A DNA stretch of 64,000 nucleotides, from NCBI GenBank assembly GCA_002731275.1, contig PCBK01000080.1, positions 1-64,000 on the forward strand, given 5' to 3'. This stretch comes from Deltaproteobacteria bacterium (GTDB lineage Bacteria > Myxococcota_C > UBA6777). Position numbers and translations under genes: made by a program. Shown here piece after piece: positions 28,603 to 59,301 of this stretch (its first letter is position 1; every line of letters starts with the position of its first letter). The notes below the pieces were generated by a model, which saw only the letters and a list, made by a program, of their open reading frames with translations, had not been told where the DNA came from and ran no database searches.

Positions 28603-31581
28603 ATGCAACGGCTGATTTTTTCGTTTCTCACGGTGTGTTGCCTTTGGGCACTTGGCGGTGTCTCCACCGCGCACGCCGTCTGTGTGAAGTCTAACGTCTT
28701 TTTGCTCCTCGATGTCTCCGGTAGTATGAAGGACACATCAACCTCCACAAAACACACGGATGTCCGAACAGCGATCAAAAAATTCACGTACGACTTCCGA
28801 AGCAAAGTGCGCTTTGGACTTGCGACCTTTGGGACGACATACACACACAAGGTCAACATCAGTGATACTGCGTGGTCGACCATTCGCTCCAATGTCGACT
28901 CCTATCCCTCCAACCAGGGATACACAAAGATGGGAACGGCGATCAGCAACGCAGGAGCCTACCTCTGGAACCTCAAGCAAAACGAAGTGGGTGATGGAAG
29001 AAAACGCCGCTACTACATCGTCCTGATTACAGACGGAAACCCCACAGGGGATACCCTCAACCCCACGACAGAGACGACCAAAGTCTGGCAAAATTATGGC
29101 ATCAAAACCTACGCGATTGGGATTCAGTTTAACGCAACAGTCCTCAACAGTATCGCGACCGCCGGACAAACTTCCAAGCCATATAACGCAAACAGCCAAT
29201 CGAGTATCACCTCAGCGTTTAACGCGATCGCCAACACCGCGACCACAGAGGTCTGTAACAACGTAGATGATGACTGTGACGGTAGTATCGACGAGTTCCT
29301 CGTTCGTCCCTGTACCACTTCTTGTGGATTCGGGATCGAGACGTGCTCTAGAGGTGTCTGGGCAAATTGTACTGCGAGCCAACCCAAAGCCGAAACATGT
29401 AACGATAAAGATGATGACTGTGATGGTCGTGTCGATGAAAACTGGTCCAACAAAGGAAACAGTTGCTCGGCAGGCGCTGGTGGCTGCCAACGTACAGGTA
29501 AATATGTCTGTAACCAGTCTGGAACAGGCACACAATGCTCTGTCAGCTCAGCCCAACCGACATCTGAAAAATGTGACGGACTTGATAACGACTGTGACGG
29601 TCGTGTCGACGAATCCCTCGTCCGCAACTGTAGCACCGCCTGTGGCTCAGGTACCGAAATCTGTTCGAATGGTCGATGGATTGGGTGCTCTGCTCCTAAG
29701 CCACAAGCCGAAAAATGTAACGGTAAAGACGATGATTGTGACGGCAGAATCGATGAAAACTGGTCGCAAAAGAACCGCTCTTGTACGACAGGTGTCGGCG
29801 AGTGTAAGCGAAGCGGATCTTACCGTTGTAAAGCTGATGGCTCAGGTCTGGAATGTTCAACACTCTCAGGCCCACCATCCACCGAAATTTGCGATGGAAA
29901 AGACAACGACTGTGACGGTCAAACAGATGAAGACTTCCCCAAAAAAGGCCAAACCTGCGGGTCTGGCGTAGGAGCTTGCTCCAAAAAAGGTACCTACATT
30001 TGTACTCCCAACGGTCTGAGTGTCCAATGTTCTGCGGGATCCGGTCAGCCAGAACCCGAAAAGTGCGATGGTACAGACAATGACTGTGATGGCATCGTCG
30101 ATGAAGGCCTCCAGCGCTCTTGCTCCACCAAGTGTGGAACAGGTCTTGAGTCCTGTAACAACGGAAAATGGGTCAACTGCTCTGCACGTAAAGAAGCCAA
30201 AGAGACTTGTAACGGTAAAGATGACGACTGTGATGGTACCGTTGATAACGGCCTGACACGTAAGTGTACGAGCAAGTGTGGAGATGGTCAGGAGACTTGT
30301 AATAACGGTCGTTGGGAAGGCTGTACTGCACAACAACCCAAAAACGAAGAGTGTAACGGTAAGGATGACGACTGTAACGGTCGTGTCGACGATCTTGTGC
30401 CCAAAAAATGCTCCGGTGCTTGTGGTTCAGGAACCGCAACTTGTGACAATGGAAAGTGGAGTGGCTGCTCCGGACCCCAACCTGAGCCCGAGACTTGTGA
30501 CGGAAAAGATAACGACTGTAACGGTAAGATTGATGATGGTGTGTCACGCCGTTGTAAATCCATCTGTGGAGAAGGGAAGGAGTATTGTGAAGCCGGTAAC
30601 TGGTCTGCTTGTGATGCGCCACTTCCCCAACCCGAATTTTGCGATGGCAAAGATAACAACTGTAACGGCAAAATCGATGAGAGCGCAGTCTGTCCCTCAG
30701 GTACTGTCTGTAGCGAAGGTGCTTGTCGCCCCGAGTGTTCTGGTGGGGAGTGTCCCAAAGGTCTCCAATGTGTGAAGGGTGTTTGTGTTGGAGACGCTTG
30801 CGCGACAGCCAAATGTGCGGACGGAGAAGTCTGCATGGGTGGACGTTGTGTCGAACCTTGCTCACTCGTCACATGTGACAGTGGACTTCGTTGTTCCAAC
30901 GGACAGTGTGTTCGCGAGGACTGTTACTTCACAGGTTGCTCAAATGGCAAGAGTTGTGTGAAGGGACGTTGTGTTGCGGATCCTTGCGCAGGTAAAACGT
31001 GTGGTGCAGACGAATTCTGTCGTGAAGGTGATTGTGTCAAGTCATGTGCAAATGTCACGTGTGGTGCGGATGAGCGCTGTGTGGATGGGAAGTGTGAAGT
31101 CAATCCTTCTACGAGTGGTGATTGTGCCAACAAGACCTGTCCTGCCGAACAAATCTGTTCTGGTGGAAATTGTGTCGCAGACCCATGTTACGGTGTGTCA
31201 TGTGCGCAAGGACGTATGTGTGTAAATGGTAACTGCGAGCATGATCCTTGTACAAACGTGAAGTGTCCAGCCAACCAAGAGTGTGTTGAAGGTCAATGCC
31301 AGAAACCAGGAACAGGGAAGCCCAAAGATGATGGTAACAATCCATCTGACGGTGTGGTCTCCGATGGTGGGAACAACGGACCTGATGGTACAGTCATTGA
31401 TCAAGGGACTGGACCCAAAAATGTTGACGCTGGGAATGGTGGTGTCGATGAGACGAATCGCCGTCGTGTCACAGGTGGCGTTGGTGGATGTGCTTGCTCT
31501 ACAAAAGATGGGGGACTCCCCATGACACCGTTTATTTTTGGCCTCTTCTTCTTGGTGTTTGCGATCCGACGCCGACGCTAG
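28603..31581 (+). CDS. Secreted VWA-domain protein with MopE-type repeats and MYXO-CTERM-like tail
   Basis: The 992-residue product starts at the ATG at 28603, with GAGG upstream. Signal peptide at residues 1-25 (ending STAHA). A von Willebrand A domain at about 28-225 has the metal-site motif DVSGSM. Ten MopE-type repeats of the form C-N-G-x-D-D-D-C-D-G-x-x-D-E follow (~230-720), then a Cys-rich EGF/TIL-like region (~725-920), an Asp/Gly/Asn-rich linker, and a tail GGCACS, hydrophobic helix, RRRR. The tail matches MYXO-CTERM sorting signals. MopE proteins are surface-associated, and the Asp-rich repeats are predicted metal-binding. It is likely displayed on the cell surface. Two paralogues lie downstream. 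Confidence 0.88.
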   Translation: MQRLIFSFLTVCCLWALGGVSTAHAVCVKSNVFLLLDVSGSMKDTSTSTKHTDVRTAIKKFTYDFRSKVRFGLATFGTTYTHKVNISDTAWSTIRSNVDSYPSNQGYTKMGTAISNAGAYLWNLKQNEVGDGRKRRYYIVLITDGNPTGDTLNPTTETTKVWQNYGIKTYAIGIQFNATVLNSIATAGQTSKPYNANSQSSITSAFNAIANTATTEVCNNVDDDCDGSIDEFLVRPCTTSCGFGIETCSRGVWANCTASQPKAETCNDKDDDCDGRVDENWSNKGNSCSAGAGGCQRTGKYVCNQSGTGTQCSVSSAQPTSEKCDGLDNDCDGRVDESLVRNCSTACGSGTEICSNGRWIGCSAPKPQAEKCNGKDDDCDGRIDENWSQKNRSCTTGVGECKRSGSYRCKADGSGLECSTLSGPPSTEICDGKDNDCDGQTDEDFPKKGQTCGSGVGACSKKGTYICTPNGLSVQCSAGSGQPEPEKCDGTDNDCDGIVDEGLQRSCSTKCGTGLESCNNGKWVNCSARKEAKETCNGKDDDCDGTVDNGLTRKCTSKCGDGQETCNNGRWEGCTAQQPKNEECNGKDDDCNGRVDDLVPKKCSGACGSGTATCDNGKWSGCSGPQPEPETCDGKDNDCNGKIDDGVSRRCKSICGEGKEYCEAGNWSACDAPLPQPEFCDGKDNNCNGKIDESAVCPSGTVCSEGACRPECSGGECPKGLQCVKGVCVGDACATAKCADGEVCMGGRCVEPCSLVTCDSGLRCSNGQCVREDCYFTGCSNGKSCVKGRCVADPCAGKTCGADEFCREGDCVKSCANVTCGADERCVDGKCEVNPSTSGDCANKTCPAEQICSGGNCVADPCYGVSCAQGRMCVNGNCEHDPCTNVKCPANQECVEGQCQKPGTGKPKDDGNNPSDGVVSDGGNNGPDGTVIDQGTGPKNVDAGNGGVDETNRRRVTGGVGGCACSTKDGGLPMTPFIFGLFFLVFAIRRRR
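29200..30700 (+). repeat. MopE-type coding repeats (10 copies)
   Basis: Repeats of about 40-55 codons, each with a tgtaacggtaaagatgatga-like core encoding CNGKDDDCDG. The DNA similarity creates long spurious open frames on both strands. Confidence 0.75.
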
Positions 31582-31783
31582 ACTCCTTTCCCTTCCCCAC
31601 TTCCTCTATCTTTCCCTCCAATTGTAACCACAAAAACCACGACATTCTGTCTACGGCGTCTTGTATTTCCGCGACCAAACAAAATTTCCTCTTCTTTCGG
31701 AAAGAGCTTTGTGGTAGCATACCTAGCCACGAGAACCCACTCTACTTTCTGTTCAAAACGAACAACTGAAGGAGACTTTCAAA

Positions 31784-34700
31784 TTGCGACGTGCATCTGC
31801 TTTTCTACACCTGTTCGTTGGACTGGCCGTATGTTGTAGTGTCTTTCTTTTTAAAGCCAACTCAGCTTTTGCTTGCGATCCTCCCGATGTCTTGATCGTG
31901 CTCGATCGATCTTGCAGTATGGGATCCAACAGCAAGTGGACACAGGCAAAAAACGCCATCAGAACCATCACCAACAATTACAAAGGCAAATTGAGATTTG
32001 GATTGGAGACGTTTAACTCCGGTGCAGCGATTAACTATGCCCTGACAAAGTGTCAAAGCGACGGTGTCGCGACCAACTGTGTTCCGCGTTTACAAACAAC
32101 GCTGAACTCGATCAGTTATTCAGGTGGCACAAATTTGATCGCCGCCTTGACTGTCGCGAAAAACCACCTCAACGCTGTGAAAGCCGCCGACACTGTATCA
32201 GGTCGTAAACGCAGCGTGATGTTCTTGACGGATGGTCAAGCAACATGTGCTTTCTCCGAAGCCCGCGCGCTGTGGTTACAGCTCGGTGTCAAAACCTATG
32301 TGATTGGGTTTGGTTCGGGGGTTGATGGAAACTGTCTGAGCAAGATGGCGACAGAGGGGCAAACTGCGCTCTCTGGAACACGGAAGTATTATCAAGCGAA
32401 CAGCCAGACCGAGCTTAACGCTGCCATGAAGGCGATCGCCGACGCGAGTCGTGTCGAGATCTGTAACAACTCAGATGATGACTGTGATGGTCGAGTCGAT
32501 GAAGGTCTTTCTCGTGCCTGCTCTGGTGCTTGTGGTGCCGGAACACAAGTCTGTTCGAAGGGGGCATGGGGGACGTGTTCCACGGCTCCCAAGGCAGAAA
32601 CGTGCAACGGAAGAGATGACGACTGTGACGGCGCAACAGACGAAAACTGGCCGCAAAAATCACAGGGTTGTTCTGTTGGAGTTGGTGCCTGTCGTCGCAA
32701 TGGGACGTATGTCTGTAACAGCGCAAAAAATGGTGTCGTCTGTTCTGCAAAGGCGGGTAGTGCATCTTCCGAGCTTTGTGATGGCATTGACAATGACTGT
32801 GACGGTCGTGTCGATGAAAACTGGCCGCAGAAAGGCTCCTCTTGCTTTGCTGGGACTGGAGCATGTCGAAACACCGGTACATTCTCGTGTAATAGCGCAA
32901 AAACTGGACTGACCTGTTCTGCTAAGGCTGGCTCTCCCACGACAGAAAAGTGCAACGGTCAGGATGATGACTGTGACGGTAAAATTGATGAGAGTCTCAC
33001 CAGAACTTGTAGCAGCAAGTGTGGTAGTGGACAGGAAACATGTCAGGGGGGGACGTGGGTCAACTGTACTGCGAAAACCCCATCACCTGAACTGTGTAAT
33101 GGAAAAGACGATGACTGCGACGGTTCTATTGATGAAGACTGGTCGCTAAAAAATAAGACATGTACTGTCGGAAAAGGCATCTGCGCTCGTTCAAGCAAGT
33201 GGCGATGTCGTGCTGATCAGTTTGACATTGAGTGCCCTGTCAAAGCTGGCTCCCCCACAACCGAAATCTGTAACGGGAAAGATGATGACTGTGACGGACT
33301 GACCGACGAAAATTGGCCGCAAAAAGGTGAGCCATGTGTCGGCGGAACAGGCGCTTGTCAACGTACTGGTAAGAAGGTTTGTAGCGGGGATGGAAAATCC
33401 CTTATTTGTTCTGCGACCCAAGGGAACGCGACCAAAGAGATCTGTAACGATAAAGATGACGACTGTGATGGGAAAGTTGACGAAGACTGGGCATTGAAAG
33501 GTAAATTCTGCTCTGTTGGACTTGGTGAATGCCGTCGCACAGGCTCTTGGATTTGTAACACCGCTGGAACCAATGTCGCTTGCTCTGTAAAAGCCGGGAA
33601 GGCTGGTACAGAGACCTGTAACGGGAAAGATGATGACTGTGATGGTCTCGTCGATGAACAGCTCGAAAAAGCTTGTACCACCGGATGCGGAAAAGGAAAG
33701 CAGGTCTGTATCAATGGTAAGTTCGCTGCTTGCTCTTCACCTGTTCCTTCACCTGAAAAGTGCGACGGTATCGACAATGACTGTAACGGTCAAGTCGATG
33801 ATCAATGGCCCAACCGAGGGAAAAACTGCTCTGTCGGAAAAGGGGCATGCAAGCGCGTAGGACGCTGGATCTGTGATGCGAGCAAGACAAAGCTTCAATG
33901 TTCTGCGAAAGCCGGCTCCCCAACAACCGAAGTTTGTGACGATAAAGACAACGACTGCGATGGCCAAATTGACGAAAATTGGGCCAACAAAGGCAAAACT
34001 TGTGGTAGCGGTGTCGGTGGCTGCCAAAGAAAAGGAACATATGTCTGTAAGCCCGATGGCACAGGAACACAATGCTCTGTCTCTGGTACTGTTCCAGAGC
34101 CCGAGAAGTGTGACGGTATCGACAACGATTGTAACGGTCAGGTCGATGAAAATGTCACTCGCGCATGTAAAACGAAGTGCGGTGTTGGGCTTGAGACTTG
34201 TAAAGGCGGAAAATTCGAAGGGTGTACTGCACGCCAACCCACAGCTGAGACATGTAACGGTCGGGATGATAACTGCGATGGTTCTGTCGATGAGAACTTG
34301 ACACAAGAGTGCTCCACAAAGTGTGGCAAAGGACAAGAACAGTGTGTCAACGGCAAGTGGGAATTCTGTGACGCGCAAAAATCAGTCGCTGAAGAGTGCA
34401 ACGGTAAAGATGATGACTGTGATGGCGACATCGATGAAGACGTTGCTCCCAAACCCTGTAAAGGGTCATGCGGTTCTGGTACCGCTGTTTGTGCAGATGG
34501 TAAGTTTGGAGGCTGCTCCGGTCCCCAACCAGAGCCCGAAAAGTGCGATGGAAAGGATAACGACTGTAACGGTAAAGTCGATGACAACCTCGAACAAAAC
34601 TGTCGTAGTGCCTGCGGTAGTGGAAAGCAAACATGTGTGAATGGTGCGTGGTCCGATTGTTCTGCTCCCACCCCTCAGCCTGAGTTTTGTAACGGTAAAG

Positions 34701-35713
34701 ATGATGACTGTGACGGTCAGGTCGATAATAGCGCAACCTGTCCTTCTGGCCTGGAGTGTAAAGATGGACTTTGTCGTCCACTGTGCGTCGGTGGTGAGTG
34801 TGCCAAAGGTCTCTTGTGTGTGGATGGTTTCTGTGTTGGCGATCCTTGCAAAGATAGAACGTGCGCAAGTGACGAAGTCTGTATTGGTGGTAAGTGCGTT
34901 GAGCCTTGTACTCTCATCAGCTGTAATGCCGGATTTATCTGTTCCAACGGACAATGTGTGAAAGAAGACTGTTACATCAAAGGCTGTCCCAGTGGCGAGA
35001 GCTGCGAAAACGGTCTGTGTGTCGCGGATCCTTGCGCTGGCAAAACATGTGGTGCAGGTGAATTCTGTCGAGAAGGCGACTGTGTGAAGTCATGTGCGAG
35101 TGTGACTTGCCAGGATAACCAAAAATGTGTAGACGGAAAATGCGAGGACGATCCCACCAAAAATGGTGATTGTGCGAGTGTCTTTTGTAAAGACGGAGAG
35201 TTTTGTAAAGAAGGCAAATGTGTCGTTGATCCTTGTGCAGGTGTCTTCTGTGGAAAAGGAAGAATCTGTAAAGAAGGTCGATGTACACACGATACCTGCA
35301 CAAATATCACATGCCCGACAGGCGCAGTTTGTAAAGATGGTCAGTGCCAAAAAGACAACACTGGCGGTGATCCTGATGGTACGACAAATGCTGATGGTGG
35401 TATCAATTATCCTGATGGGTGGTCCTATTCGCCGGATGAAGGAACTGTCACGTTGCCTGATGGACGTGTTGTACCTGCGGATCAGGTCAGCAGGCAGCCC
35501 GACGGAAAGATCGTCGTGAATGGACCTGATAAAGCAAATGAATACTTCATCCCTGACAATAAAACGACTGGGACTGGTGTTGATAAAAAACCCACAGGAA
35601 GGACTGTTGAGCCTGGTGGGTGTGGCTGTCAAACGACAAGCGGCTTCCCCGTTGCGCCTGTCTCTTTGTTGATCTTCTTCCTCTTTATTGGATTGCGACG
35701 AAGAGAGCAATAA
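31784..35713 (+). CDS. Large secreted VWA/MopE-repeat protein with MYXO-CTERM-like tail
   Basis: The 1309-residue product starts at TTG (31784), eight bases after AAGGAG; the encoded signal peptide (RRASAFLHLF...NSAFA) supports this start. The VWA domain at about 33-230 has MIDAS DRSCSM, with Cys in place of the usual Gly. Fifteen MopE-type repeats (CNGKDDDCDGxxDE family) occupy about 230-985, the largest number of the three paralogues. A Cys-rich EGF/TIL-like region at about 990-1190 is nearly collinear with that of the preceding gene. The C-terminus is GGCGCQ, a hydrophobic helix, then RRREQ. Predicted surface-anchored, disulfide-rich and metal-binding. No function is proven for the family in this context. 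Confidence 0.88.
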   Translation: MRRASAFLHLFVGLAVCCSVFLFKANSAFACDPPDVLIVLDRSCSMGSNSKWTQAKNAIRTITNNYKGKLRFGLETFNSGAAINYALTKCQSDGVATNCVPRLQTTLNSISYSGGTNLIAALTVAKNHLNAVKAADTVSGRKRSVMFLTDGQATCAFSEARALWLQLGVKTYVIGFGSGVDGNCLSKMATEGQTALSGTRKYYQANSQTELNAAMKAIADASRVEICNNSDDDCDGRVDEGLSRACSGACGAGTQVCSKGAWGTCSTAPKAETCNGRDDDCDGATDENWPQKSQGCSVGVGACRRNGTYVCNSAKNGVVCSAKAGSASSELCDGIDNDCDGRVDENWPQKGSSCFAGTGACRNTGTFSCNSAKTGLTCSAKAGSPTTEKCNGQDDDCDGKIDESLTRTCSSKCGSGQETCQGGTWVNCTAKTPSPELCNGKDDDCDGSIDEDWSLKNKTCTVGKGICARSSKWRCRADQFDIECPVKAGSPTTEICNGKDDDCDGLTDENWPQKGEPCVGGTGACQRTGKKVCSGDGKSLICSATQGNATKEICNDKDDDCDGKVDEDWALKGKFCSVGLGECRRTGSWICNTAGTNVACSVKAGKAGTETCNGKDDDCDGLVDEQLEKACTTGCGKGKQVCINGKFAACSSPVPSPEKCDGIDNDCNGQVDDQWPNRGKNCSVGKGACKRVGRWICDASKTKLQCSAKAGSPTTEVCDDKDNDCDGQIDENWANKGKTCGSGVGGCQRKGTYVCKPDGTGTQCSVSGTVPEPEKCDGIDNDCNGQVDENVTRACKTKCGVGLETCKGGKFEGCTARQPTAETCNGRDDNCDGSVDENLTQECSTKCGKGQEQCVNGKWEFCDAQKSVAEECNGKDDDCDGDIDEDVAPKPCKGSCGSGTAVCADGKFGGCSGPQPEPEKCDGKDNDCNGKVDDNLEQNCRSACGSGKQTCVNGAWSDCSAPTPQPEFCNGKDDDCDGQVDNSATCPSGLECKDGLCRPLCVGGECAKGLLCVDGFCVGDPCKDRTCASDEVCIGGKCVEPCTLISCNAGFICSNGQCVKEDCYIKGCPSGESCENGLCVADPCAGKTCGAGEFCREGDCVKSCASVTCQDNQKCVDGKCEDDPTKNGDCASVFCKDGEFCKEGKCVVDPCAGVFCGKGRICKEGRCTHDTCTNITCPTGAVCKDGQCQKDNTGGDPDGTTNADGGINYPDGWSYSPDEGTVTLPDGRVVPADQVSRQPDGKIVVNGPDKANEYFIPDNKTTGTGVDKKPTGRTVEPGGCGCQTTSGFPVAPVSLLIFFLFIGLRRREQ
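32455..34740 (+). repeat. MopE-type coding repeats (15 copies)
   Basis: Tandem repeats in the 1309-residue gene with the same CNGKDDDCDG-type core. The spacer between cores alternates between about 33 and 50 residues, giving two repeat subtypes: one with a cysteine-containing TKCGxGxExC segment, the other with KGxxCxxGxGxCxRxG. Confidence 0.75.
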
Positions 35714-36585: not shown

Positions 36586-38961
36586 ATGATGGAAAAGTCC
36601 AAAAAAGTTTCATTGTATGTTTGGTTTAGTTTGTGTGCTGGTCTGATCGTGTGTTTGCATGGAATGCCAGCGTGTATCATTCAAGACTTTTCTTTGGATA
36701 ATCACGTTTGTGCAACATCTGGGACCAATGAGTGTCTGGCAGGGTGGCGATGTGATACAACGCAGAATCGGTGTGTTCTCGCCGAGGTGGCTGTCTCTGA
36801 GCCTGGTGTTGAAACAATCCAATCAGAGCCAAATACAGAGCAAGTCACTCCCAAAGAGGAGCCGCCTTCACAGGAACCTGTGAAGCCTGACGTCGCAGAT
36901 GCAGGGCCTGAGCTTCCGCCCAAAGAAGAGCCACCCGAGCAGCCGGCCAACCAATTGTGCGTGTACAAAAAAGAGTCCAACGCTCTGAATTGCACGGAGA
37001 AGCAAGGGTGTAAGTTCTTCAACAGCGCGCTTACAACATCGACCGTTGCGTTGCCCAAGGCCATTTCAGGAGCTTACGCAGTCGCACGTGATAGTGGCTT
37101 TAGCTCGATTCTCTCTGAGAGTCCAACACCCTACATTTATCTCGTGGGTGGGGGGGATGGAGCTCCTGGCGCAGAAGTCCTCTACACAAAAGTCGACGCA
37201 ACAGGAAAGATTGTGCAGTGGAAGACAGGCAAATTGCTCGCTGAAGCGCGCACCAACGCCTACGCTTTCATCTACCGCAATCATTTATACGTGGTGGGTG
37301 GTGAGAATGCGAGCGCACAAGGCGTGAAGGGCATTGAGCGCGCACCACTTAATGCCGACGGGAGTATGGGAGACTTCATCAAAGTGGGGACCTGGGACAA
37401 CGCACGTCCCAAAGCTGGAATCGTCTTCATGTATGGTCATCTGTACTTTGTCGGAGGACTCGGCTCTGATGGAAAACCGAGTAAAGATGTTGAGCACGCG
37501 TTGATTCTCCCTGATGGTCAAGTTGGAACGGTTTCGACCGCTATGATGGACGTGAACGGAACACCTGAGGCTGCCTCACTTCCTGAAGGACGTATTGGAC
37601 CCGTCGTCGCCACTGAACATTTCATCTACGTGCTTGGGCCTGGCGCCACCTCTGAAGTCTTGATGGCACACATCCTCCCCAACGGGATGATCGAAGCGTG
37701 GTGTACCACAACAGAGATTCCCAGACCCGATGGAAGTGTTGATTCTCTCCAGGCGTTGGGGAGCGCAAGACGTATTCTCTTGTTTGGATTGGCTTCTGGA
37801 AACAAAATTAACTCACAACTCTACTTTGGTGCTTTGAAAAAAGGAACACAGCAGAACGTCTTTGGTGGCGGTCTTGAGACATGGCGTTGCAGTAAGGCCG
37901 GTAACGCTCCAGCGAAGGAAAAAGCGGAGATGCTTGTGCCACGTAAAGGAGCCGCGGCGGTGTACGTTCAACGAAGGCTGTATCTTATCGGTGGTGTCGA
38001 CGCGAGCAACAAAACACTCAGCTCCATTGAGATCGGCGAACCCAACTTCCTTACGGATCTTTGTGACTTGGATCTCGATGGGATCAGCGGGAACGCTGAT
38101 TACTGTCGGCACAACTACTCACCTGCGAATAAAAATGACGACCAACCATCGTCTATTACGTATCCTGGTGACACAGGTAATGGTTGGGTAGATCGTTTTG
38201 GTCATGGAAACGTTTGTGAACAGAAACATATGTTGTTGGTCTCGGCTGGCGAGTTTAAACGAGGCTCTATCACTGCTGATCCACAAACGGATGCTCCTCA
38301 AGGTTCTGTGACAATGAATGCCTTTTATATCGACACCTACGAGGTGACTAACGCTGATTATCGAGAGTGTGTGACGGCTGGTGTGTGTACCGCGCCTAAA
38401 AGCGCAGATCTGGGCTCGATTACAGGCTATCACACAGACAAAACGTACGATAACTACCCTGTTGTTCAGGTGACCTACGAGATGGCGAAGAAGTACTGTG
38501 CGTACCGAGGTAAACGTTTACCAACGGAGGCCGAGTGGGAGAAGGCAGCTCGTGGTCTGGATGGTGGAAAGTTTCCTTGGGGCAATGGGAACACTGCTCC
38601 CGTGTGCACGAAAGATCAGCAACAGGCAAACTACAAAGATTGTAAGGCGACATCACCTGTTGAGGTTGGCTCTCTGAAGCCCGGCGAGGGACCATACGGA
38701 ACCTTTGATATGGGCGGAAATGTCCGCGAGTGGGTCGCTGATTTTTACAGTGATACCTACTACAACGATCAAGCCTCATTGATGAATCCAACGGGACCTG
38801 ACTCTGGCACTGAGCGGGTCATTCGTGGTGGTTCATTTAGCACCGATGTAAAGTTTATCACCACCTACACGCGTGATAAGGGTACACCTGAAACTGCGGC
38901 TGATGATCTTGGTTTCCGTTGTGCTCGTGATCTTTACATACAACTTGCGCCTGCCAACTGA
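36586..38961 (+). CDS. Secreted kelch-like propeller + formylglycine-generating-enzyme (FGE/SUMF1) domain protein
   Basis: The 791-residue product has a signal sequence (residues ~8-30, ending CLHGMPAC, possibly a lipobox). A Cys-containing segment and a Pro/Glu-rich linker follow. Residues ~155-490 contain kelch-like repeats (YIYLVGGGDGA, HLYVVGGENAS, HLYFVGGLGSD, RLYLIGGVDAS). A calcium-loop-like Asp-rich stretch follows (DLDLDGISGNADYC). Residues ~545-785 form an FGE-sulfatase domain (MLLVSAGEFKRGS, YEVTNADYRECV, KRLPTEAEWEKAARG, GNVREWVADFY, RVIRGGSF, DLGFRCAR). Many bacterial FGE-fold domains are non-oxidase binding or iron-enzyme modules, so activity is uncertain. A TATAAT element at 36555 lacks a good -35. 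The TPR gene follows after 14 bp. Confidence 0.85.
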   Translation: MMEKSKKVSLYVWFSLCAGLIVCLHGMPACIIQDFSLDNHVCATSGTNECLAGWRCDTTQNRCVLAEVAVSEPGVETIQSEPNTEQVTPKEEPPSQEPVKPDVADAGPELPPKEEPPEQPANQLCVYKKESNALNCTEKQGCKFFNSALTTSTVALPKAISGAYAVARDSGFSSILSESPTPYIYLVGGGDGAPGAEVLYTKVDATGKIVQWKTGKLLAEARTNAYAFIYRNHLYVVGGENASAQGVKGIERAPLNADGSMGDFIKVGTWDNARPKAGIVFMYGHLYFVGGLGSDGKPSKDVEHALILPDGQVGTVSTAMMDVNGTPEAASLPEGRIGPVVATEHFIYVLGPGATSEVLMAHILPNGMIEAWCTTTEIPRPDGSVDSLQALGSARRILLFGLASGNKINSQLYFGALKKGTQQNVFGGGLETWRCSKAGNAPAKEKAEMLVPRKGAAAVYVQRRLYLIGGVDASNKTLSSIEIGEPNFLTDLCDLDLDGISGNADYCRHNYSPANKNDDQPSSITYPGDTGNGWVDRFGHGNVCEQKHMLLVSAGEFKRGSITADPQTDAPQGSVTMNAFYIDTYEVTNADYRECVTAGVCTAPKSADLGSITGYHTDKTYDNYPVVQVTYEMAKKYCAYRGKRLPTEAEWEKAARGLDGGKFPWGNGNTAPVCTKDQQQANYKDCKATSPVEVGSLKPGEGPYGTFDMGGNVREWVADFYSDTYYNDQASLMNPTGPDSGTERVIRGGSFSTDVKFITTYTRDKGTPETAADDLGFRCARDLYIQLAPAN

Positions 38962-38975
38962 GCGAGGAGAGATTT

Positions 38976-40034
38976 ATGAAAACAATACCATCCTGCCTGC
39001 TTTTTGTCGGGCTCTTGTTATGTCTGGGGCTGTCTTTTTCACCTTCGACAGCTGAGGCAAATGCTCAACTTGAGAAAGCGATCGCGAAAGTCAAAGACTT
39101 CGACATTCGTGGCGCGCTCAAGATCCTTGAACCCATGAAAGACAGTTCCCTCGCACCCACAACACAGGCGCAAGTCTATCTCTATCTGGGACTTAGCTAT
39201 CTCTACCTGCGTCGTCGGAGCGATGGGATCGATGCCTTCAAAAAAGCGATCAGTGTCAATTCGAGCATCAACCTGCCTGCAGGTTCCCCAAAGCGTATCC
39301 GCAAAGCCTTTGAAGAAGCACGTCGCAACTCTGGAGGTGGCGTCGGAGGACTGGGGATTCCTCCTGTTCGCCGAAGCACTCTGAATGTCCCCCCTCCAAC
39401 GCGTAGAGAGACATTTAACCCTCCACCGCTTCGACGTGAGACGTTTAACCCTCCACCACCACGTAGAGAGACGTTTAATCCTCCTCCTCCACGACGTGAG
39501 ACGTTTAATCCTCCTCCTCCACGTCGCGATGATTCGATGAATTTTGGCTCTTTTAATACGCGCAAAACACCACCTGTACGCCGTGAGCCACTTCGTCTTG
39601 ATCCTCCTCCTGGACGCAAGCTCGCTCTCTCCGGTGATAATGATGCGGAGTTGAAGATGGAAGAGAACAAGTTGAAGGCCAAAAAGCCAAGTGGTGTGCC
39701 CATTGTTGTGACGGGGGTGATTGCTGGTGCAGCGGTTCTGGCTCTTGGTGGGGGAGGCGTCTTTGGCTTCCTAGCCTCCCAAGACGTCCAAAAAGGTCTA
39801 GATATCGCGACGCCACAAACAGAGCTTCCTGCACTTGAGGAGCAAGCCAAAGGGAACGCAATGATCGCCAATATTCTCTACATTGGTGGTGGTGTTCTTG
39901 CGGCGACAGCTGTTGTGCTGTTCTTCCTCAGGCCCAAGTCCAAGCCCGTCAAAAAGAAGTCCGATATGCTCTCAAGACGTCCCCCAGCCAAAAGTATTCC
40001 TCCTGCTGTTGTCTTGGTTCCATCGACACTATAG
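38976..40034 (+). CDS. TPR-like envelope protein with RRETFNPPPP repeats
   Basis: The 352-residue product has a signal peptide (residues 1-29, ending AEA). A TPR-like region lies at about 30-120 (ALKILEPMKD, QVYLYLGLSYLYLRRRSDGIDAFKKAISVN). A proline-rich stretch with four 10-residue repeats R-R-E-T-F-N-P-P-P-P occupies about 135-190. Two hydrophobic helices flank a short loop at about 245-270 (VPIVVTGVIAGAAVLALGGGGVFGF) and 292-313 (IANILYIGGGVLAATAVVLFF), then a Lys-rich tail. The ribosome site is GAGGAGAG. It lies 14 bp behind the kelch/FGE gene and is probably in the same operon. The architecture resembles TPR envelope proteins common in myxobacteria; the function is unknown. Confidence 0.8.
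   Translation: MKTIPSCLLFVGLLLCLGLSFSPSTAEANAQLEKAIAKVKDFDIRGALKILEPMKDSSLAPTTQAQVYLYLGLSYLYLRRRSDGIDAFKKAISVNSSINLPAGSPKRIRKAFEEARRNSGGGVGGLGIPPVRRSTLNVPPPTRRETFNPPPLRRETFNPPPPRRETFNPPPPRRETFNPPPPRRDDSMNFGSFNTRKTPPVRREPLRLDPPPGRKLALSGDNDAELKMEENKLKAKKPSGVPIVVTGVIAGAAVLALGGGGVFGFLASQDVQKGLDIATPQTELPALEEQAKGNAMIANILYIGGGVLAATAVVLFFLRPKSKPVKKKSDMLSRRPPAKSIPPAVVLVPSTL
39403..39530 (+). repeat. 30-bp tandem repeats encoding RRETFNPPPP
   Basis: Four consecutive ~30-bp units (cgtagagagacgtttaaycc-like) in the TPR gene. Codon usage varies between units, so they are not very recent copies. Confidence 0.75.
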
Positions 40035-40509: not shown

Positions 40510-42462
40510 ATGAACCCAGGTGATTTGTTCGCACAAGGTAGATATACGCTGCTTCGAAAGCTTCGTAGTAGTGGTATGGCTGAAGTTTGGCTTGCCCGAC
40601 AGCACGGGACGGAGGGGTTTGCAAAGGACGTTGTCCTCAAACGTATTTTGCCCCATCTCGCTGAAGATGAGAAGCTGATCTCCATGTTTTTGGATGAAGG
40701 GCGGATCGCGGCGAATCTCAACCACCCCAACGTCGTTCAAATTTTTGATCTCGGCAATGATGGCGTCGATTACTACATCGCCATGGAGTACATCCGAGGA
40801 TACGATCTCGAACAAATCCAAGAACAGCTTCGCAAACGCAACGTCGCCTTTCCTGTCGAGTACGCGCTTCGTATCATCGCGGACACATGTCTTGGTCTGG
40901 ACTACGCCCACGACTGCAAAGCCTCCGATGGGACTCCTATGAACGTCGTGCACAGGGATGTCTCACCACAAAACATCCTCGTCTCAGAGACAGGCGTCGT
41001 GAAGTTGATCGACTTTGGTATCGCAAAAGCCAGGACATCTTCGACACGCACACAGGTCGGCCATACAAAAGGCAAGATCTGTTACATGTCTCCTGAACAG
41101 ATGATGGCACGTGATCTCGATCGACGTAGTGATATTTTCTCAGCAGGTGTGGTCCTCTATGAATCACTGTTGAGCTTGAAACCCTTTGATGGGGACAACT
41201 TGCTCGCTTGCTTTCATAAGCTGATGAAAGAGGGGATCATCCTCCCTCGACAAGTTCGCCGTGATATCCATCCTGAGCTTGAACATGTCATGATGACCGC
41301 GCTCGCCAAAGATCGTGATGAACGCTATCCGACTGCCGGGGCTTTTCGACGTGCGCTTGAGCAATTTTTACGTGGACAGGGGATCTCTGTTGGACCTGAG
41401 CATCTGAGTGATTTCCTCAAGTGGTTGTTTACACCAAATGATTCCACACAAGTTGCGTTGGATCTTCCTTATGCGGTGGCCCAACAGAATGGTGCAAAAC
41501 CCCTCTCCAGTCCATCAGTCCCTGCTGGCAATGGTTTTGGTACAGAAGATCGTGTCGCAGCACATGCTGGGCGTGTGACGGCTTCTGGTGCCCCTCAGCC
41601 TCAGCACGCAGGTCGGCAAACGTCACCTGCAGGGACACCGCCTGGACCACAAGGATTCCCCCAAGGGCCGATGGCACCTCCTCATGGTGTCTCAGATCCT
41701 AATGTTCCTCACTCAGGCTTCTTCCAAGGGGCACCTGCTCCATCAGCTCACTACCAGACCGGACCTTCTCTGGGCGCGCTTGCTGGCTCTGATCCTGCAC
41801 TCGGCGGAATTGGTGTGCACTCTACCGGACCCTCCTTGGGCGTACCGATGGAGTTCAACGATGATGATGAACTCCATTACCGCGGTCGTAAAAAGCGTTC
41901 TTCTGGTGGTGTGTGGATCTACATCTTGCTGCTCTTTGTCCTCGCTGCTGGTGGTGTTTTGACAACACACTTTCTCGGGGTCTTGCCTGGATTTACGTCG
42001 GCTAGCGTGGTGACAAAGGATGCTGGTACACCGACACCTCCCCGGATCGCAACAGTGAAGCAAGACGCCGGCACACCCGATGTGCGTAAGGTCCCTGTGA
42101 GGAGCAAGCCTGATGCCAGACGGACAAAACCTGTTAAGCGTCGTGCCAAGCCGGACAAAAGGAAGAGCACCAAGCGCACAAAGCCTGTCGCTCGCAAAGT
42201 CGAAAGACGTCCTCCACCAAAAAGAAGAAAAAAACGTCGGGTGCGTGGGTGGGGATATGTGATCATTGACACTGATATCCGCGCGCGGGTCAGCATCGAC
42301 GGTAAACTGAATTACATCCGCGTCCCGCTCCTCAAAAAGAAGAAGATCAAGGCAGGGTGGCACAGACTTCGTTTTATCTCTCCCGCAGGGACAAAAGTGA
42401 AGCGGGTGTATATCACCCCTAACAAAACCAAAGACATTTACGTACGCCTTCGCTCCCGCTGA
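40510..42462 (+). CDS. Membrane Ser/Thr protein kinase with PEGA-like C-terminal domain
   Basis: The 650-residue product has a Hanks-type kinase domain at about residues 10-280: VVLKRI (Lys), HRDVSPQNIL catalytic loop, DFG, and GKICYMSPEQ. The glycine loop is atypical (KLRSSGMAEVW). HRDVSPQN is the variant common in myxobacterial kinases. A Pro/Gly/His-rich linker follows (~330-455), a membrane helix at about 476-498 (VWIYILLLFVLAAGGVLTTHF), a Lys/Arg/Pro-rich stretch, and a C-terminal PEGA-like domain (GWGYVIIDTDIRARVSIDGK). It is probably an inner-membrane receptor kinase with an extracytoplasmic sensor, and may phosphorylate ligands read by the FHA proteins, which is inference. Confidence 0.9.
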   Translation: MNPGDLFAQGRYTLLRKLRSSGMAEVWLARQHGTEGFAKDVVLKRILPHLAEDEKLISMFLDEGRIAANLNHPNVVQIFDLGNDGVDYYIAMEYIRGYDLEQIQEQLRKRNVAFPVEYALRIIADTCLGLDYAHDCKASDGTPMNVVHRDVSPQNILVSETGVVKLIDFGIAKARTSSTRTQVGHTKGKICYMSPEQMMARDLDRRSDIFSAGVVLYESLLSLKPFDGDNLLACFHKLMKEGIILPRQVRRDIHPELEHVMMTALAKDRDERYPTAGAFRRALEQFLRGQGISVGPEHLSDFLKWLFTPNDSTQVALDLPYAVAQQNGAKPLSSPSVPAGNGFGTEDRVAAHAGRVTASGAPQPQHAGRQTSPAGTPPGPQGFPQGPMAPPHGVSDPNVPHSGFFQGAPAPSAHYQTGPSLGALAGSDPALGGIGVHSTGPSLGVPMEFNDDDELHYRGRKKRSSGGVWIYILLLFVLAAGGVLTTHFLGVLPGFTSASVVTKDAGTPTPPRIATVKQDAGTPDVRKVPVRSKPDARRTKPVKRRAKPDKRKSTKRTKPVARKVERRPPPKRRKKRRVRGWGYVIIDTDIRARVSIDGKLNYIRVPLLKKKKIKAGWHRLRFISPAGTKVKRVYITPNKTKDIYVRLRSR

Positions 42463-42657: not shown

Positions 42658-42909
42658 ATGAAATATCTTCCAGAACCTGTCTCTGGTGGGCCACTCGCTC
42701 GCCAAAAGCAAGAAGCACGTCGTCTGGGATGGCATGCGTTGAGAGCTGGTGCTCTGACCCTTGGTGGTGTGGGCCTCTGTCTATTTGGAATGGGTGGGGG
42801 GCTCGGTTGGTTCCTTGGAGGCCTTGGTGCATTGGTCGGAACTGCCTGGACAGGTGTACAAACCTGGAAATGGTTGCAGTTTCGTGGTAAATGGGGACTG
42901 CGTTTTTAA
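42658..42909 (+). CDS. Small hydrophobic membrane protein
   Basis: The 83-residue product (MKYLPEPVSGGPLARQ...) starts at the ATG at 42658, which has AAGGA at proper spacing; an ATG two codons earlier directly abuts that site. A Gly-rich hydrophobic stretch at about residues 28-58 (LTLGGVGLCLFGMGGGLGWFLGGLGALVG) probably forms one or two membrane helices. It ends WGLRF. No family is recognised. A short inverted repeat (TGGCA...TGCCA) at 42930-42945 follows the stop. Confidence 0.55.
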   Translation: MKYLPEPVSGGPLARQKQEARRLGWHALRAGALTLGGVGLCLFGMGGGLGWFLGGLGALVGTAWTGVQTWKWLQFRGKWGLRF

Positions 42910-43022
42910 TCGTGAACCTTTTTTTCATTTGGCAGCTCATTGCCAGATGGAGTGTTTGGTCTCTTTGGAGGCCGTTTATTGTGAATAAAGTTCTACGACG
43001 ATATTGAATCGGAGGTTGTCAA

Positions 43023-43553
43023 ATGATTCGGAATTTCTTTGTGATGTTGTCAGTGTTGTTCTTTGCTGCAGGTTGTGCGCCTTCCAACTGGAAAGTCGTT
43101 CGTCAAGCGAAGCCCAACCCCTTCAAATCTGGTGCACCAGCCTTCAAAGCGACAGCGATCGACTTTGGAAGTGCGCAAATGGCTGGTGTTGCGAAAACAA
43201 TGAATAAGAAAAAGTTCAAGACCGATCTGTCTTTTCTGTCACGCCACTACCGCAAAGCGTTGTTGCGTTCGATGAATGGGAAAGGTGTGAAGATCTTCAC
43301 TGGAAAAGCCAACCCTGGTGTTTACGTGTTGCGCGCAGTTGCGACCACGATTGATCCAGGTAGCGCACAAAAGCCCAGCATGATCGAGCTGAAAGTGCAA
43401 ATCCTCAAAAACAACCGCATCCAAGATGTGATCACTGTGAAGAGCAGCACCAAGTTCGAGAAAGCCAAGTCCGTCAGCGCAAGAATGCAAATGGACGGAA
43501 AAAACCTTGGTGAGTATGTTGGAAAATATCTCTCAAAACGTCTTGGTAAATAA
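43023..43553 (+). CDS. Putative lipoprotein
   Basis: The 176-residue product has GGAGG seven bases before the ATG. A lipoprotein signal ends FFAAGC (lipid Cys at residue 18). The mature part has a beta/alpha pattern (FKATAIDFGSAQM, GVYVLRAVATTIDPG, SMIELKVQILKNNRIQDVITV) reminiscent of DUF4410-type periplasmic lipoproteins, though I am not certain of the family. It probably sits in the outer or inner membrane, facing the periplasm. It is convergent with the next gene pair. Confidence 0.7.
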   Translation: MIRNFFVMLSVLFFAAGCAPSNWKVVRQAKPNPFKSGAPAFKATAIDFGSAQMAGVAKTMNKKKFKTDLSFLSRHYRKALLRSMNGKGVKIFTGKANPGVYVLRAVATTIDPGSAQKPSMIELKVQILKNNRIQDVITVKSSTKFEKAKSVSARMQMDGKNLGEYVGKYLSKRLGK

Positions 43554-43595
43554 GTTTTTTCCTCACAAACGCCCCTCCTGACACGCCCCCATCTT

Positions 43596-44081
43596 TTATC
43601 TTCGTCGCTTAAACCTCTTTCGATTCGGTGCAAAGCGCGGCTTGAGAAAGCGCTCTTTGGGGAGCTTGATCCGCCAGCGACAACGCCACTTACGTGAAGA
43701 TTGGTTTTGCTCGCGCAATCTCCTCGTGATCACAAACATCCTGCGATCGATCCTGTAGCAAAGATCGAATGTCTGCTTCATCTTTTTGCATTCTCGGGTT
43801 CGGCGTTTTTGACAGGCGCTCCATCGCTCTTCACAAGAATAGATCGCGAGGCGAGGGTGGAGACGGATCCACCTACGGATCGTTTTTTGGACCTTTTTGT
43901 ACAACTTCCAACAACGACGGGTGCGAAACTTTCCACTTCGTTTGAGCTTGGGAAGATCTTTGGAAGGTGTTGCCTTGGTCTTGTTAGGTTTTGCTTCCGA
44001 AGTGATTGGGAGCACCGCGAAGAGCGCACAAGCAAGGACAATCTGTAAGACGTGAGGACAGGGGAGTGGAGGACGTCTCAT
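43596..44081 (-). CDS. Small secreted, strongly basic Cys-containing protein
   Basis: The 161-residue product has a signal peptide (LQIVLACALFAVLPITSEA), then a mature part very rich in Arg and Lys with spaced cysteines (RTRRCWKLYKKVQ, SCEERWSACQKRR, RECKKMKQTFDLCYR, RKWRCRW). Predicted disulfide-bonded and helical. Its ATG overlaps the stop of the upstream gene in an ATGA junction (44078-44081), so translation is probably coupled. No family is recognised. The basic/cysteine spacing resembles the C-terminal segment of the NlpC/P60 lipoprotein at 15420-16526. Confidence 0.65.
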   Translation of the reverse strand: MRRPPLPCPHVLQIVLACALFAVLPITSEAKPNKTKATPSKDLPKLKRSGKFRTRRCWKLYKKVQKTIRRWIRLHPRLAIYSCEERWSACQKRRTRECKKMKQTFDLCYRIDRRMFVITRRLREQNQSSRKWRCRWRIKLPKERFLKPRFAPNRKRFKRRR

Positions 44082-44767
44082 GAGTCCACTTTTTTGCCGA
44101 CGGCTTTCAGCGATGTCTTGCCATCCCTTGTGACGACGCGAAAGTCGATGTTTTTGTAGCCTTTCTCTTCAAGCTTGGTGACCTGTCGGGCGAGCTTTCT
44201 CTTCATCGAATCAAACGACACATTCGATGACTCGTTGTGTTGTTGTTTGCTGTTGACAAAGTTCTGGTAGATCTGTTGGAGCCGTTCTTCAGAAGGACCA
44301 TTCGCGATCCCTGTGGAGGGGCCTACCTTTTCTCTGGGGGCTTGATTTTGTTTGAGATCGGGGTTCATCAAGTCTTCGATGGTGTAGGCTGCAGGACGCT
44401 CCTTGGCCTCTTGTGAGGGGGCGTGCTCTGTCGTGACACCTTCTTTGGTCGTGACGGATAAACCGAGACGTCGACGGGCCCGTTGTCTGTCGCGCTGGTA
44501 GTTTCCTTGTTCTCTTTGGTATTTGACACGCTCCCAGTACTGAGAGTAAGAGCTAAACCGACTGTTGAGTGTACGTAGACGAAAACGATCTACCGAGCTC
44601 TTTACCTGCATCTGCAGACTTCGGATCTCCCTTTTGATGTTCTCTTTTTCTCTGTAAGGCTCTTTCTTCTCGACCCCATTGAAGAACAATTCGTATTGTA
44701 CGCGACACTCATTGATCCTTCGTTCGAGTTGATCGAGCTTGCTCTTTAATTGCTTGTTTTTATCCAT
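44078..44767 (-). CDS. Coiled-coil protein resembling the MXAN_5187 C-terminal family
   Basis: The 229-residue product has an N-terminal coiled coil at about residues 1-100 (LKSKLDQLERRINECRVQYELFFNG...REIRSLQMQV) and a disordered middle. A C-terminal conserved-looking region at about 165-225 (RLQQIYQNFVNS, SFDSMKRKLARQVTKLEEKGYKNIDFRVVTRDGKTSLKA) resembles a small family described from Myxococcus. No membrane segment is seen. It is translationally coupled to the secreted basic protein gene through an ATGA overlap. Function unknown. Confidence 0.65.
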   Translation of the reverse strand: MDKNKQLKSKLDQLERRINECRVQYELFFNGVEKKEPYREKENIKREIRSLQMQVKSSVDRFRLRTLNSRFSSYSQYWERVKYQREQGNYQRDRQRARRRLGLSVTTKEGVTTEHAPSQEAKERPAAYTIEDLMNPDLKQNQAPREKVGPSTGIANGPSEERLQQIYQNFVNSKQQHNESSNVSFDSMKRKLARQVTKLEEKGYKNIDFRVVTRDGKTSLKAVGKKVDS

Positions 44768-45219
44768 GTGTATGCGCCTTTTGCTCTCGAAAGGCCAGAA
44801 GCCAGATCGTCTGTTCTTTTCGTGCCTTTGTTTCTACTACATCCTGCCGATGAATGCCAACTTGAAACTTTTTTTTGAAGTCTGTCATACTTCTTTTGAC
44901 TGCGGGGTATAGGATATAGTTTCGGATCAATCTGGAACTTTTTGTATCGCTGTGTGTTTTTACCAGTGTGCCCAAACTGTGATACTGACGTGATTTGGAA
45001 CGTGAACCTTGACCGTCTGTTGTGGGTCTGGTACAAAGATAGAATGTCCTGTCATACTTTAAATAATTTTGGAAAGTTGGTAGGTTGCTTACCATTTGTT
45101 ACACTTTTTGTGATAAAAAATAGATGATTGAATGATGCGAACTCACCAAGGCGGTGGGTTGGTTTTTTGCCATGGTTTTGTGGATCGGCTGACTTCCTGT
45201 CCGCAAATAAAGGAACGCT
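44768..45219. other. AT-rich divergent intergenic region (452 bp)
   Basis: Lies between the coiled-coil gene (minus) and the third VWA gene (plus). An A/T-rich block at 45055-45125 holds a weak promoter-like pair (TTACCA, 17 bp, GATAAA, ending about 45118). A GG-N10-GC arrangement near 45152-45170 is too weak to call as sigma-54. No ORF is supported. Confidence 0.4.
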
Positions 45220-47349
45220 ATGAGGTACGAGATGGACCAAACAATTCAAAATGTCAAAACGCTCCTGAAAGGGGTGTTTGGTCTCGGTTTATTTTTCGGT
45301 TTGATGTTGTTTTCAGCAAACAACGCCTATGCACAACCTGCAAACTGCTTGCCCTCTGACTTGTTGTTGGTCATCGACCACTCCGGTAGTATGACGGGGC
45401 GTACTTCAAGCGGTGAGACAAAGTGGAGCGCTTCTTCGAAAGCCTTTAACACACTGCTCACACAATACGCAACCAAGCTCCGCTTCGGTCTGGTGACCTT
45501 CTCTACCACCGCAAAGCTGCGCGTGAATGTCGGTCCCAACACCGCCAACCAATGTCTCTCCATCTTGAAACAGACCAATCCCAGTGGTCGTACCGCGATG
45601 AAGTGCGCGATGGACATCTCCTACAACCACTTCAAAAACACTGTCATCCCACGTGACTCTGTGAAAGACCGACGCCGCTTCGTCGTCCTTATCACAGATG
45701 GTATTCCCAACGAATGTGGAACCAACGTCGTTCCCTCCGTCGCACGTCTTCGTTCGATCGGAGTCGGTGGTGCGAATTACGACGTCAAAACATTTGTCAT
45801 TGGCTTTGGTTCAGGGGTAGACAAAACACAGCTTCGCAACATGGCGGTTGCTGGCGGTACCCAAAAATACTACCAAGCGGATAACTTCTCCGATCTGACC
45901 AAGGCGCTGACTACGATCGCAAACGGTGCTTCTAAAGAGATCTGTGATAACAAAGACAACGACTGCGATGGCGTCGTGGATAACTTCAATGAGATCTGTG
46001 TCGCGACATGTGGTGCAGGTACACGTACCTGTAAAAACGGACAATTCACACAATGTACGACCAACAAACAGCCCTCCAAAGAGATCTGTAACAAGATTGA
46101 CGATGACTGTAACGGTAAAATCGATGACAATCTGACTCGTCCTTGCGGAAACAACTGCGGGACAGGTACAGAGACTTGTAAACTTGGTAAGTGGGTCAAT
46201 TGTACGGCACCCGGTGTGGGCGTTGAGACCTGTAACGGTAAAGACGATGACTGTAACGGTCGTATCGACGAAGGCCTCTCCAAAGAATGTTCCACCAAGT
46301 GTGGAAAGGGTACACAAGCTTGTGTCCAGGGTGACTGGAGCACTTGTACAGCCCGCCAACCACAACCTGTCGATGCATGTGATGGTATTGATAACGACTG
46401 TGATGGAAAGGTCGACAACAACGCCACATGTCCCGGTAAAGGAAAGTGCTATGCTGGTGATTGTCTGACCGCATGTACTGGTGAGTGTAAAGTCGGTGAG
46501 TACTGTGCCCCCGATGGATTCTGCCGTCCCAAAAACTGTACCCCCGAGTGTCCCGAAGGACAATTCTGTCGTCAAGGAGCGTGCTTTAACGCTGACTGTA
46601 CGACCCCCGAGGGCAAGTGTCAGGCTGGAGAAATCTGCCGTAGTCGTCGTTGTTTCCGTGACCCCTGTGCGGGCGTAACTTGTGCTGCTGACCAATTCTG
46701 CCTGAATGGCGAATGTCGTCACTCATGTGCCAAAGTCCAAGGCACTTGTAAGGCCGGTGAAGTCTGTAAAAATGGTGTCTGTACAAAAGATGATTGTGCG
46801 AGCAAGGTCTGTGCTGACGGTTACAGCTGTGTAAACGGCCAATGTGAAGCGCAGAAGTGTCCAAATGGATGTCCCCAAGGCCAATACTGTGAAGGCACTG
46901 TCTGTGTCGACTATCCCTGTAAATACGTCCAATGTCCCAGCGGACAAACATGCTCCAATGGTGACTGCTACGATCCCAATAAGTTGCCCCCCAACTACGA
47001 TCCAAATGCGACAAACACCAACGGTTCAAGCGCAACAGGTGGGACAGGCACAACTTCCACAGGTACGACTTCCACAGGCACAAACTCGACGGGTACAACT
47101 TCCACAGGCACAACCTCGACAGGTTCAACGGCCAACGGTTCGAGCGCAACGGGCGCAACTGGTTCTATCAGTAGCGCCAACGCAACAGGCGCAAACGGAG
47201 CGACTGCAAACGGAACGAATGCAAATGGTGGCAATCGTCCGACCAATGGTGCTTGTGTATGTTCTTCTGCTCACCTTGAGCCGACCTTCCCCATCTCCTT
47301 CCTCATCCTCTTCGTCTTGATGCCAATGATGTTCCGTCGACGTAAGTAA
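45220..47349 (+). CDS. Secreted VWA/MopE-repeat protein with Thr/Ser/Gly linker and MYXO-CTERM-like tail
   Basis: The 709-residue product has AAGGA upstream of the ATG. Signal peptide to about residue 39 (ANNAYAQ). The VWA domain at about 43-240 has MIDAS DHSGSM. Only four MopE-type repeats follow (~243-405; CDNKDNDCDG, CNKIDDDCNG, CNGKDDDCNG, CDGIDNDCDG). A Cys-rich EGF/TIL-like region spans about 410-590. A low-complexity Thr/Ser/Gly linker (repeated TSTGTTSTG) lies at about 600-670. The tail has GACVCS, a hydrophobic helix and RRRK, a MYXO-CTERM-like signal. It has the same overall plan as the genes at 28603 and 31784 but fewer repeats. Confidence 0.88.
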   Translation: MRYEMDQTIQNVKTLLKGVFGLGLFFGLMLFSANNAYAQPANCLPSDLLLVIDHSGSMTGRTSSGETKWSASSKAFNTLLTQYATKLRFGLVTFSTTAKLRVNVGPNTANQCLSILKQTNPSGRTAMKCAMDISYNHFKNTVIPRDSVKDRRRFVVLITDGIPNECGTNVVPSVARLRSIGVGGANYDVKTFVIGFGSGVDKTQLRNMAVAGGTQKYYQADNFSDLTKALTTIANGASKEICDNKDNDCDGVVDNFNEICVATCGAGTRTCKNGQFTQCTTNKQPSKEICNKIDDDCNGKIDDNLTRPCGNNCGTGTETCKLGKWVNCTAPGVGVETCNGKDDDCNGRIDEGLSKECSTKCGKGTQACVQGDWSTCTARQPQPVDACDGIDNDCDGKVDNNATCPGKGKCYAGDCLTACTGECKVGEYCAPDGFCRPKNCTPECPEGQFCRQGACFNADCTTPEGKCQAGEICRSRRCFRDPCAGVTCAADQFCLNGECRHSCAKVQGTCKAGEVCKNGVCTKDDCASKVCADGYSCVNGQCEAQKCPNGCPQGQYCEGTVCVDYPCKYVQCPSGQTCSNGDCYDPNKLPPNYDPNATNTNGSSATGGTGTTSTGTTSTGTNSTGTTSTGTTSTGSTANGSSATGATGSISSANATGANGATANGTNANGGNRPTNGACVCSSAHLEPTFPISFLILFVLMPMMFRRRK
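47040..47150 (+). repeat. Thr/Ser/Gly low-complexity coding repeat
   Basis: Repeated 15-bp units (acttccacaggtacg-like) encoding T-S-T-G-T, forming the flexible stalk before the C-terminal anchor of the third VWA gene. Confidence 0.7.
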
Positions 47350-59280: not shown

Positions 59281-59301
59281 CACCCACATGGAGGAAAAAC
59301 C

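Follow-up and report, generated by a model that had tools for sequence, protein, structure and literature searches.

What do three paralogous proteins do at the cell surface if each of them combines a signal peptide, a VWA domain, a tandem array of MopE-type motifs, a Cys-rich region and a C-terminal tail made of Cys, a TM helix and Arg residues? This question is raised by the genes P1, P2 and P3, which lie in a window of 64,000 nucleotides, the whole stretch of DNA analyzed here, from a genome of 10.75 Mb that is 94.65 % complete and 5.5 % contaminated. The original prediction had described this shared architecture, which was confirmed along with the coordinates and reading frames of the three genes, and had read the proteins as a disulfide-rich set of surface adhesins or metal sensors. 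A surface family with a MYXO-CTERM-type tail was upheld, whereas metal sensing was not. The explanation preferred here, with a probability of about 0.6, is that P1-P3 are cell-surface contact adhesins or receptors with a VWA head, a stalk stabilized by disulfides and probably by Ca2+, and an anchor of the MYXO-CTERM type. Adhesins or receptors are the favored assignment because adhesin VWA domains are among the top matches of the head and the sorting machinery is present. The three genes and their parts are as follows.

28603..31581, + strand: P1, 992 aa, with VWA domain, 10 MopE motifs, Cys-rich region and MYXO-CTERM tail
28678..29253, + strand: VWA domain of P1, MIDAS DVSGS/T/D
29254..30678, + strand: array of P1, 10 Cys motifs of the Dx[DN]xDG type joined by A (35 aa) and B (45 aa) linkers
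30679..31299, + strand: Cys-rich region of P1, 39 Cys, about ten 21-aa units C-x4-C-x5-C-x4-C
31489..31578, + strand: MYXO-CTERM tail of P1, GGCACS...RRRR, 25.6 bits scored alone
31784..35713, + strand: paralogue P2, 1309 aa, TTG start, 15 motifs
31874..32461, + strand: VWA domain of P2, MIDAS DRSCS
32462..34726, + strand: motif array of P2, motifs 8-12 modelled with a mean pLDDT of 85.9
34727..35347, + strand: Cys-rich region of P2, with the Cys spacing of P1
35621..35710, + strand: MYXO-CTERM tail of P2, GGCGCQ...RRREQ, 23.5 bits scored alone
45220..47349, + strand: paralogue P3, 709 aa, 4 motifs
45334..45942, + strand: VWA domain of P3, MIDAS DHSGS, model matching the VWA domain of the LapA adhesin
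45943..46416, + strand: motif array of P3, from motif scan and model
46417..46968, + strand: Cys-rich region of P3, 35 Cys
46969..47253, + strand: spacer of P3 rich in Thr, Gly, Ser and Asn, probably disordered judging by its composition
47254..47346, + strand: tail of P3, ACVCSS...FRRRK, below the TIGR03901 cutoff and recovered by the lineage tail model

Head, repeat arrays and Cys-rich region

The VWA domain exceeds the Pfam gathering cutoff in P1, P2 and P3 (E-values of 8e-16, 2e-15 and 3e-18), and the full MIDAS DxSxS...T...D is present in 3/3. Structure prediction had been proposed as a check for the VWA domains and the repeat unit. For P3, an AlphaFold model of aa 39-600, based on 11 sequences in the alignment, reached a mean pLDDT of 80, and the VWA part was predicted with confidence (mostly 87-96). 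The best Foldseek matches of this VWA model in the PDB include the VWA domain of the LapA adhesin of Pseudomonas fluorescens (9no5, TMt 0.80), which is the best bacterial match in both structure and sequence. Other top matches are the mussel byssus protein PTMP1 and the minor pilin PilB of S. sanguinis. In contrast to the proteins described here, LapA is a giant RTX adhesin exported by type 1 secretion, and it is anchored differently.

Scanning for the motif C-x(2,3)-[DN][DN][DN]-C-[DN]-G-x2-D found 10, 15 and 4 copies in P1, P2 and P3, exactly the numbers that had been predicted, and 2000 composition-shuffled controls of each protein yielded 0 to 1 motif. The Pfam model Cu-binding_MopE (PF11617) scores 135, 207 and 62 bits in the three proteins at a gathering cutoff of 27, in line with the predicted MopE type. 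The motifs are separated by two kinds of linkers with four Cys each, linker A with 34-36 aa and the pattern CxxxCGxGxxxCxxGxWxxC, and linker B with 45 aa and the pattern CxxGxGxCxxxGxxxCxxxxxxxxCS. Their order is ABABBAAAA in P1, ABBABBBABBAAAA in P2 and AAA in P3, and the final AAAA block is collinear between P1 and P2, with unit identities of 58, 60, 69 and 65 %. A-type linkers of 35 aa also occur in one MAG each from the Myxococcaceae and the Proteobacteria and in a MAG labelled as Woesearchaeota, and B-type linkers of 45 aa in a Deltaproteobacteria MAG. The A and B linkers are general modules and are not restricted to the window genome. In the Woesearchaeota-labelled MAG, MopE arrays containing this 35-aa linker lie at L109 6022-6702 on a contig labelled as archaeal, which may reflect horizontal transfer or mis-binning.

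The ABBA array of P2 was predicted to fold as small beta units, one for each linker (mean pLDDT 86), with the A linker forming a two-strand hairpin and the B linker a unit of three strands and a short helix. In PDB structure searches, the stalk arrays had no matching solved fold, and the pTM of the models is 0.42-0.49 (P3 aa 39-600 and the P2 ABBA array), so that they fix neither the orientation of the units nor the overall shape or rigidity of the stalk. The arrays resemble thrombospondin type 3 repeats in their tandem calcium-type Dx[DN]xDG loops, and the pattern of the A linker is reminiscent of thrombospondin type 1 repeats (TSR), which is a resemblance only. Membership in the thrombospondins was not adopted: the profile match to a BAI1 TSR reached an E-value of 1.1 only, and structure searches gave no fold match at Z>=2.

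The Cys-rich region had been described as nearly collinear between the three proteins and as EGF/TIL-like. The first part is borne out by the alignments: between P1 and P2, 39/39 Cys are aligned and all 38 spacings are identical at 61 % sequence identity, and the region of P3 is nearly collinear with both, with 35/35 Cys aligned at 35-37 % identity. However, an EGF or TIL identity was rejected since Pfam gives no match to either family at E<=0.1, and the label is therefore purely descriptive.

Sorting tail and proposed export route

All three tails had been called MYXO-CTERM-like. This stands for P1 and P2, but P3 alone lies below the curated cutoff of the model TIGR03901, which is 20 bits. 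As isolated tails, P1 and P2 pass with 25.6 and 23.5 bits, and they do so in a genome scan with 23.8 and 21.9 bits; in a whole-protein scan, they score 17.0 and 14.9 bits, below 20. The tail of P3, with A-C-V-C in place of G-C-x-C, gave no TIGR03901 match in the whole-protein scan, in the genome scan or in isolation, and the tails of its orthologues score 15.6-19.3 bits. Using a lineage tail HMM built from 26 relatives, with P3 and its orthologues left out, the P3 tail reached 24.7 bits compared to 17.4 bits for the best of 2000 shuffles. This HMM matches no other ORF terminus within the window.

The window genome encodes 30 MYXO-CTERM tails above the cutoff, and each of the five genomes examined from its GTDB phylum is rich in such tails. 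Its myxosortase is MrtP (NF040674, 315.7 bits at a cutoff of 250), a protein of 342 aa whose protease core is preceded by a long N-terminal region (L081 799-1827, G000:C65). MrtX was rejected for this role since it gave a partial match only. Across the phylum, the myxosortase core domain is above its cutoff in 4/5 genomes and GspD in 5/5. Type II secretion (T2SS), by which MYXO-CTERM proteins are documented to be exported, is encoded by an operon about 5 kb downstream of P3.

52423..63907, + strand: type II secretion operon gspC-D-E-F-G-(H-I-J)-K

The operon encodes H/I/J-like pseudopilins, and H, I, J and K are below their cutoffs. A functional unit of T2SS and P3 was rejected because their linkage is not conserved in the related genomes G001-G004, where the T2SS is located on other contigs.

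TraA of Myxococcus xanthus is a kin-recognition receptor and the MYXO-CTERM prototype (PMC3325183, PMC11980579), for which a route of Sec transport, Cys lipidation, myxosortase cleavage and T2SS export has been shown or proposed (PMC11980579). It shares with P1-P3 the signal peptide, an N-terminal binding head, a Cys-rich tandem-repeat stalk and the MYXO-CTERM tail (PMC3325183, PMC11980579). The head of TraA is a PA14 domain, whereas it is a VWA domain here, and the stalk here is composed of MopE-motif arrays and 21-aa four-Cys units. Pfam detected no PA14 domain in P1-P3, and the Cys-rich repeats of TIGR04201 gave no match at E<=10.

By analogy to TraA, we infer the same type of sorting route with lipidation, cleavage and surface export for P1-P3. 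The proteins would cross the inner membrane by Sec and be kept there by the TM helix of the tail, after which Cys lipidation, cleavage by MrtP and T2SS export to the outer surface would follow. The exposed VWA head may then bind a protein or matrix ligand through the MIDAS metal. Disulfides, and probably Ca2+ bound to the Dx[DN]xDG loops, would stiffen a stalk made of the MopE-motif array together with the four-Cys units of 21 residues. How many units the stalk has, and in which A/B order, would determine its length.

The wider family and the P3 locus

The family had been counted as three, which is too low: besides P1-P3, at least 10 proteins of the genome have the VWA domain of the family, MopE motifs and the CxC/TM/Arg tail, giving a total of at least 13. 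One paralogue of 2227 aa (G000:C21:68000-77000, L086) carries 27 motifs, and its MIDAS is degenerate (NSSQN). The same 1550-aa MopE ORF is found with equal scores on the contigs C163 and C194 (G000), probably due to assembly redundancy. Outside the phylum, the combination of VWA and MopE motifs occurs in several Myxococcota/Deltaproteobacteria MAGs, several of them with the GC-x-C/TM/Arg tail.

Five genomes of one family represent the GTDB phylum of the window genome in this comparison, and every compared genome seems to be a MAG or a draft assembly. Exact DNA identity shows G002 to be JAKLKB01 'Myxococcota bacterium MAG.451'. In a RecN tree, which gives no resolution of its deeper position, the lineage forms a clean clade with MAG.451 and the close relative SBHC01 'Deltaproteobacteria bacterium M3003'. 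The lineage is set apart from Myxococcota by GTDB, but not by the NCBI labels.

The different repeat numbers of the three proteins had been taken as a sign of expansion, which applies to a part of the family. The P2 clade ranges from 5 to 22 motifs and P1 has 10 motifs in the window and 8 in G002/G004, whereas P3 has four motifs in AAA order in 5/5 genomes of the phylum. Since P3 is constant while P1 and the P2 clade vary, expansion is confined to some family members. The order ABBABBBABBABBBABBAAAA of a paralogue in G003 would fit that of P2 with one extra block of seven units. However, a simple block duplication was rejected because the unit-by-unit identities are out of register, and the likeness of the order strings alone is therefore no proof of duplication.

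In the window, P3 is preceded by the following syntenic neighbors, with gene functions based on Pfam only.

36586..38961, + strand: Kelch repeats and FGE-sulfatase-like domain, lipoprotein-like
38976..40034, + strand: secreted/membrane protein of 352 aa without Pfam match
40510..42462, + strand: Ser/Thr protein kinase (STPK) with membrane segment and extracytoplasmic C-terminus
43023..44767, mixed strands: small genes orf176 (+, lipoprotein-like), orf161 (-) and orf229 (-), without Pfam match

Elsewhere in the window, the minus strand encodes two adjoining leucine-rich-repeat-like proteins of the STM4015 family, below the family cutoff (152-4228), and two adjacent FHA-domain proteins (8926-12442).

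The order Kelch/FGE, 352-aa protein, STPK, orf176, orf161, orf229 and P3 is kept in G002, G003 and G004, and the short G001 contig contains P3, orf229 and orf176. P1 flanks the P3 locus in G002, where it adjoins RecN as in the window, and also in G004; in G003, P1 is not at the locus. A gene of the P2 clade is located downstream of P3 in G001, G002 and G003, and in the window P2 adjoins P1. The P3 locus is conserved across this poorly known lineage, which is a new finding of this analysis.

It is possible, although doubtful, that this phylum-wide locus couples VWA-headed receptors to the Ser/Thr kinase and the Kelch/FGE protein as a dedicated module for contact sensing or adhesion, with the stalk length set by the A/B linkers. 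As an explanation of P1-P3 themselves, signaling from the VWA-stalk receptors to the membrane kinase, with the Kelch/FGE protein as part of one contact-sensing module, is unlikely. The gene order through P3 in G002, G003 and G004, its partial conservation in G001 and the recurring position of P1 all point in this direction. However, synteny is not interaction, and the kinase resides at the inner membrane while the outer membrane is the expected site of the receptors. In addition, P1 is away from the locus in G003 and at least ten further paralogues are encoded elsewhere in the genome.

A structural role in a surface layer or matrix, without a specific ligand and with the VWA domain serving self-association only, would agree with the very high Cys and repeat content and with the degenerate MIDAS of the 2227-aa paralogue. 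This is quite improbable, since the MIDAS DxSxS is intact in P1-P3 and in 9/10 other paralogues, and both the motif number and the locus of P3 are conserved.

Calcium or copper, and known relatives

The sequence D-x-[DN]-x-[DN]-G-x-[VIT]-D is fitted by 29/29 motifs. Based on the calcium-loop pattern Dx[DN]xDG (PMC3123361), the strict form Dx[DN]xDGx[ILV][DSTN] is fitted by 18/29 motifs, and the remaining 11/29 deviate by an Asn in loop position 5 or a Thr in position 8. If D/N at position 5 and T at position 8 are allowed, 29/29 motifs fit the calcium pattern. The 11 deviating motifs, and the absence of the Glu that EF-hands have at loop position 12, count against Ca2+ binding. The 1388 repeat residues of P1-P3 contain 0 His and 0 Met.

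MopE of Methylococcus capsulatus has the short Asp/Cys motif in common with the arrays, above the PF11617 gathering cutoff, but PF11617 spans just a small region of MopE (PMC6189053). The high-affinity Cu(I) site of MopE is formed by His132, His203 and kynurenine outside the PF11617 motif, and calcium is reported to shield MopE from proteolysis (PMC3423442). The copper site thus sits elsewhere in MopE and uses His and kynurenine, whereas the proteins described here have long arrays without His or Met. Because of this composition, the calcium-loop pattern and the position of the MopE copper site outside the motif, the arrays look like a stalk stabilized by disulfides and predicted Ca2+ binding rather than a copper or metal sensor. 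Scavenging or sensing of copper or other metals, as suggested by the Pfam name Cu-binding_MopE and in part by the original prediction, was rejected on the same grounds as highly improbable, even with 4 to 15 copies of PF11617 above gathering per protein and with additional low-affinity Cu(II) sites proposed for the Asp-rich N-terminal segment of MopE (PMC3423442).

Each building block of these proteins is already known, and their combination appears to be undescribed in the literature searched, although this search was not exhaustive. Among surface proteins of myxobacteria, CglB is an adhesin with a VWA domain and is an N-terminal lipoprotein, and PilY1 is pilus-associated and has a PilY1 C-terminal domain. 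Neither CglB nor PilY1 is known to carry MopE arrays or a MYXO-CTERM tail. The VWA-type PilY1.3 of myxobacteria has a VWA adhesion domain on a surface protein, as is the case here (PMC9109919).

As contact adhesins or receptors, P1-P3 would reuse the head, stalk and MYXO-CTERM design of TraA, but with an integrin-like head instead of PA14 and on another type of stalk. Genomes of a lineage that GTDB places outside the Myxococcota each encode this design many times. For genome annotation, the evidence argues against calling the widespread PF11617 arrays copper-binding, and a stalk stabilized by Ca2+ and disulfides provides a testable alternative. P3 is a conserved single target with testable locus partners. 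If the coupling to the kinase locus were true, this module would belong to an uncultured lineage that GTDB sets apart from the Myxococcota and that nevertheless uses a large MYXO-CTERM/MrtP system for surface display.
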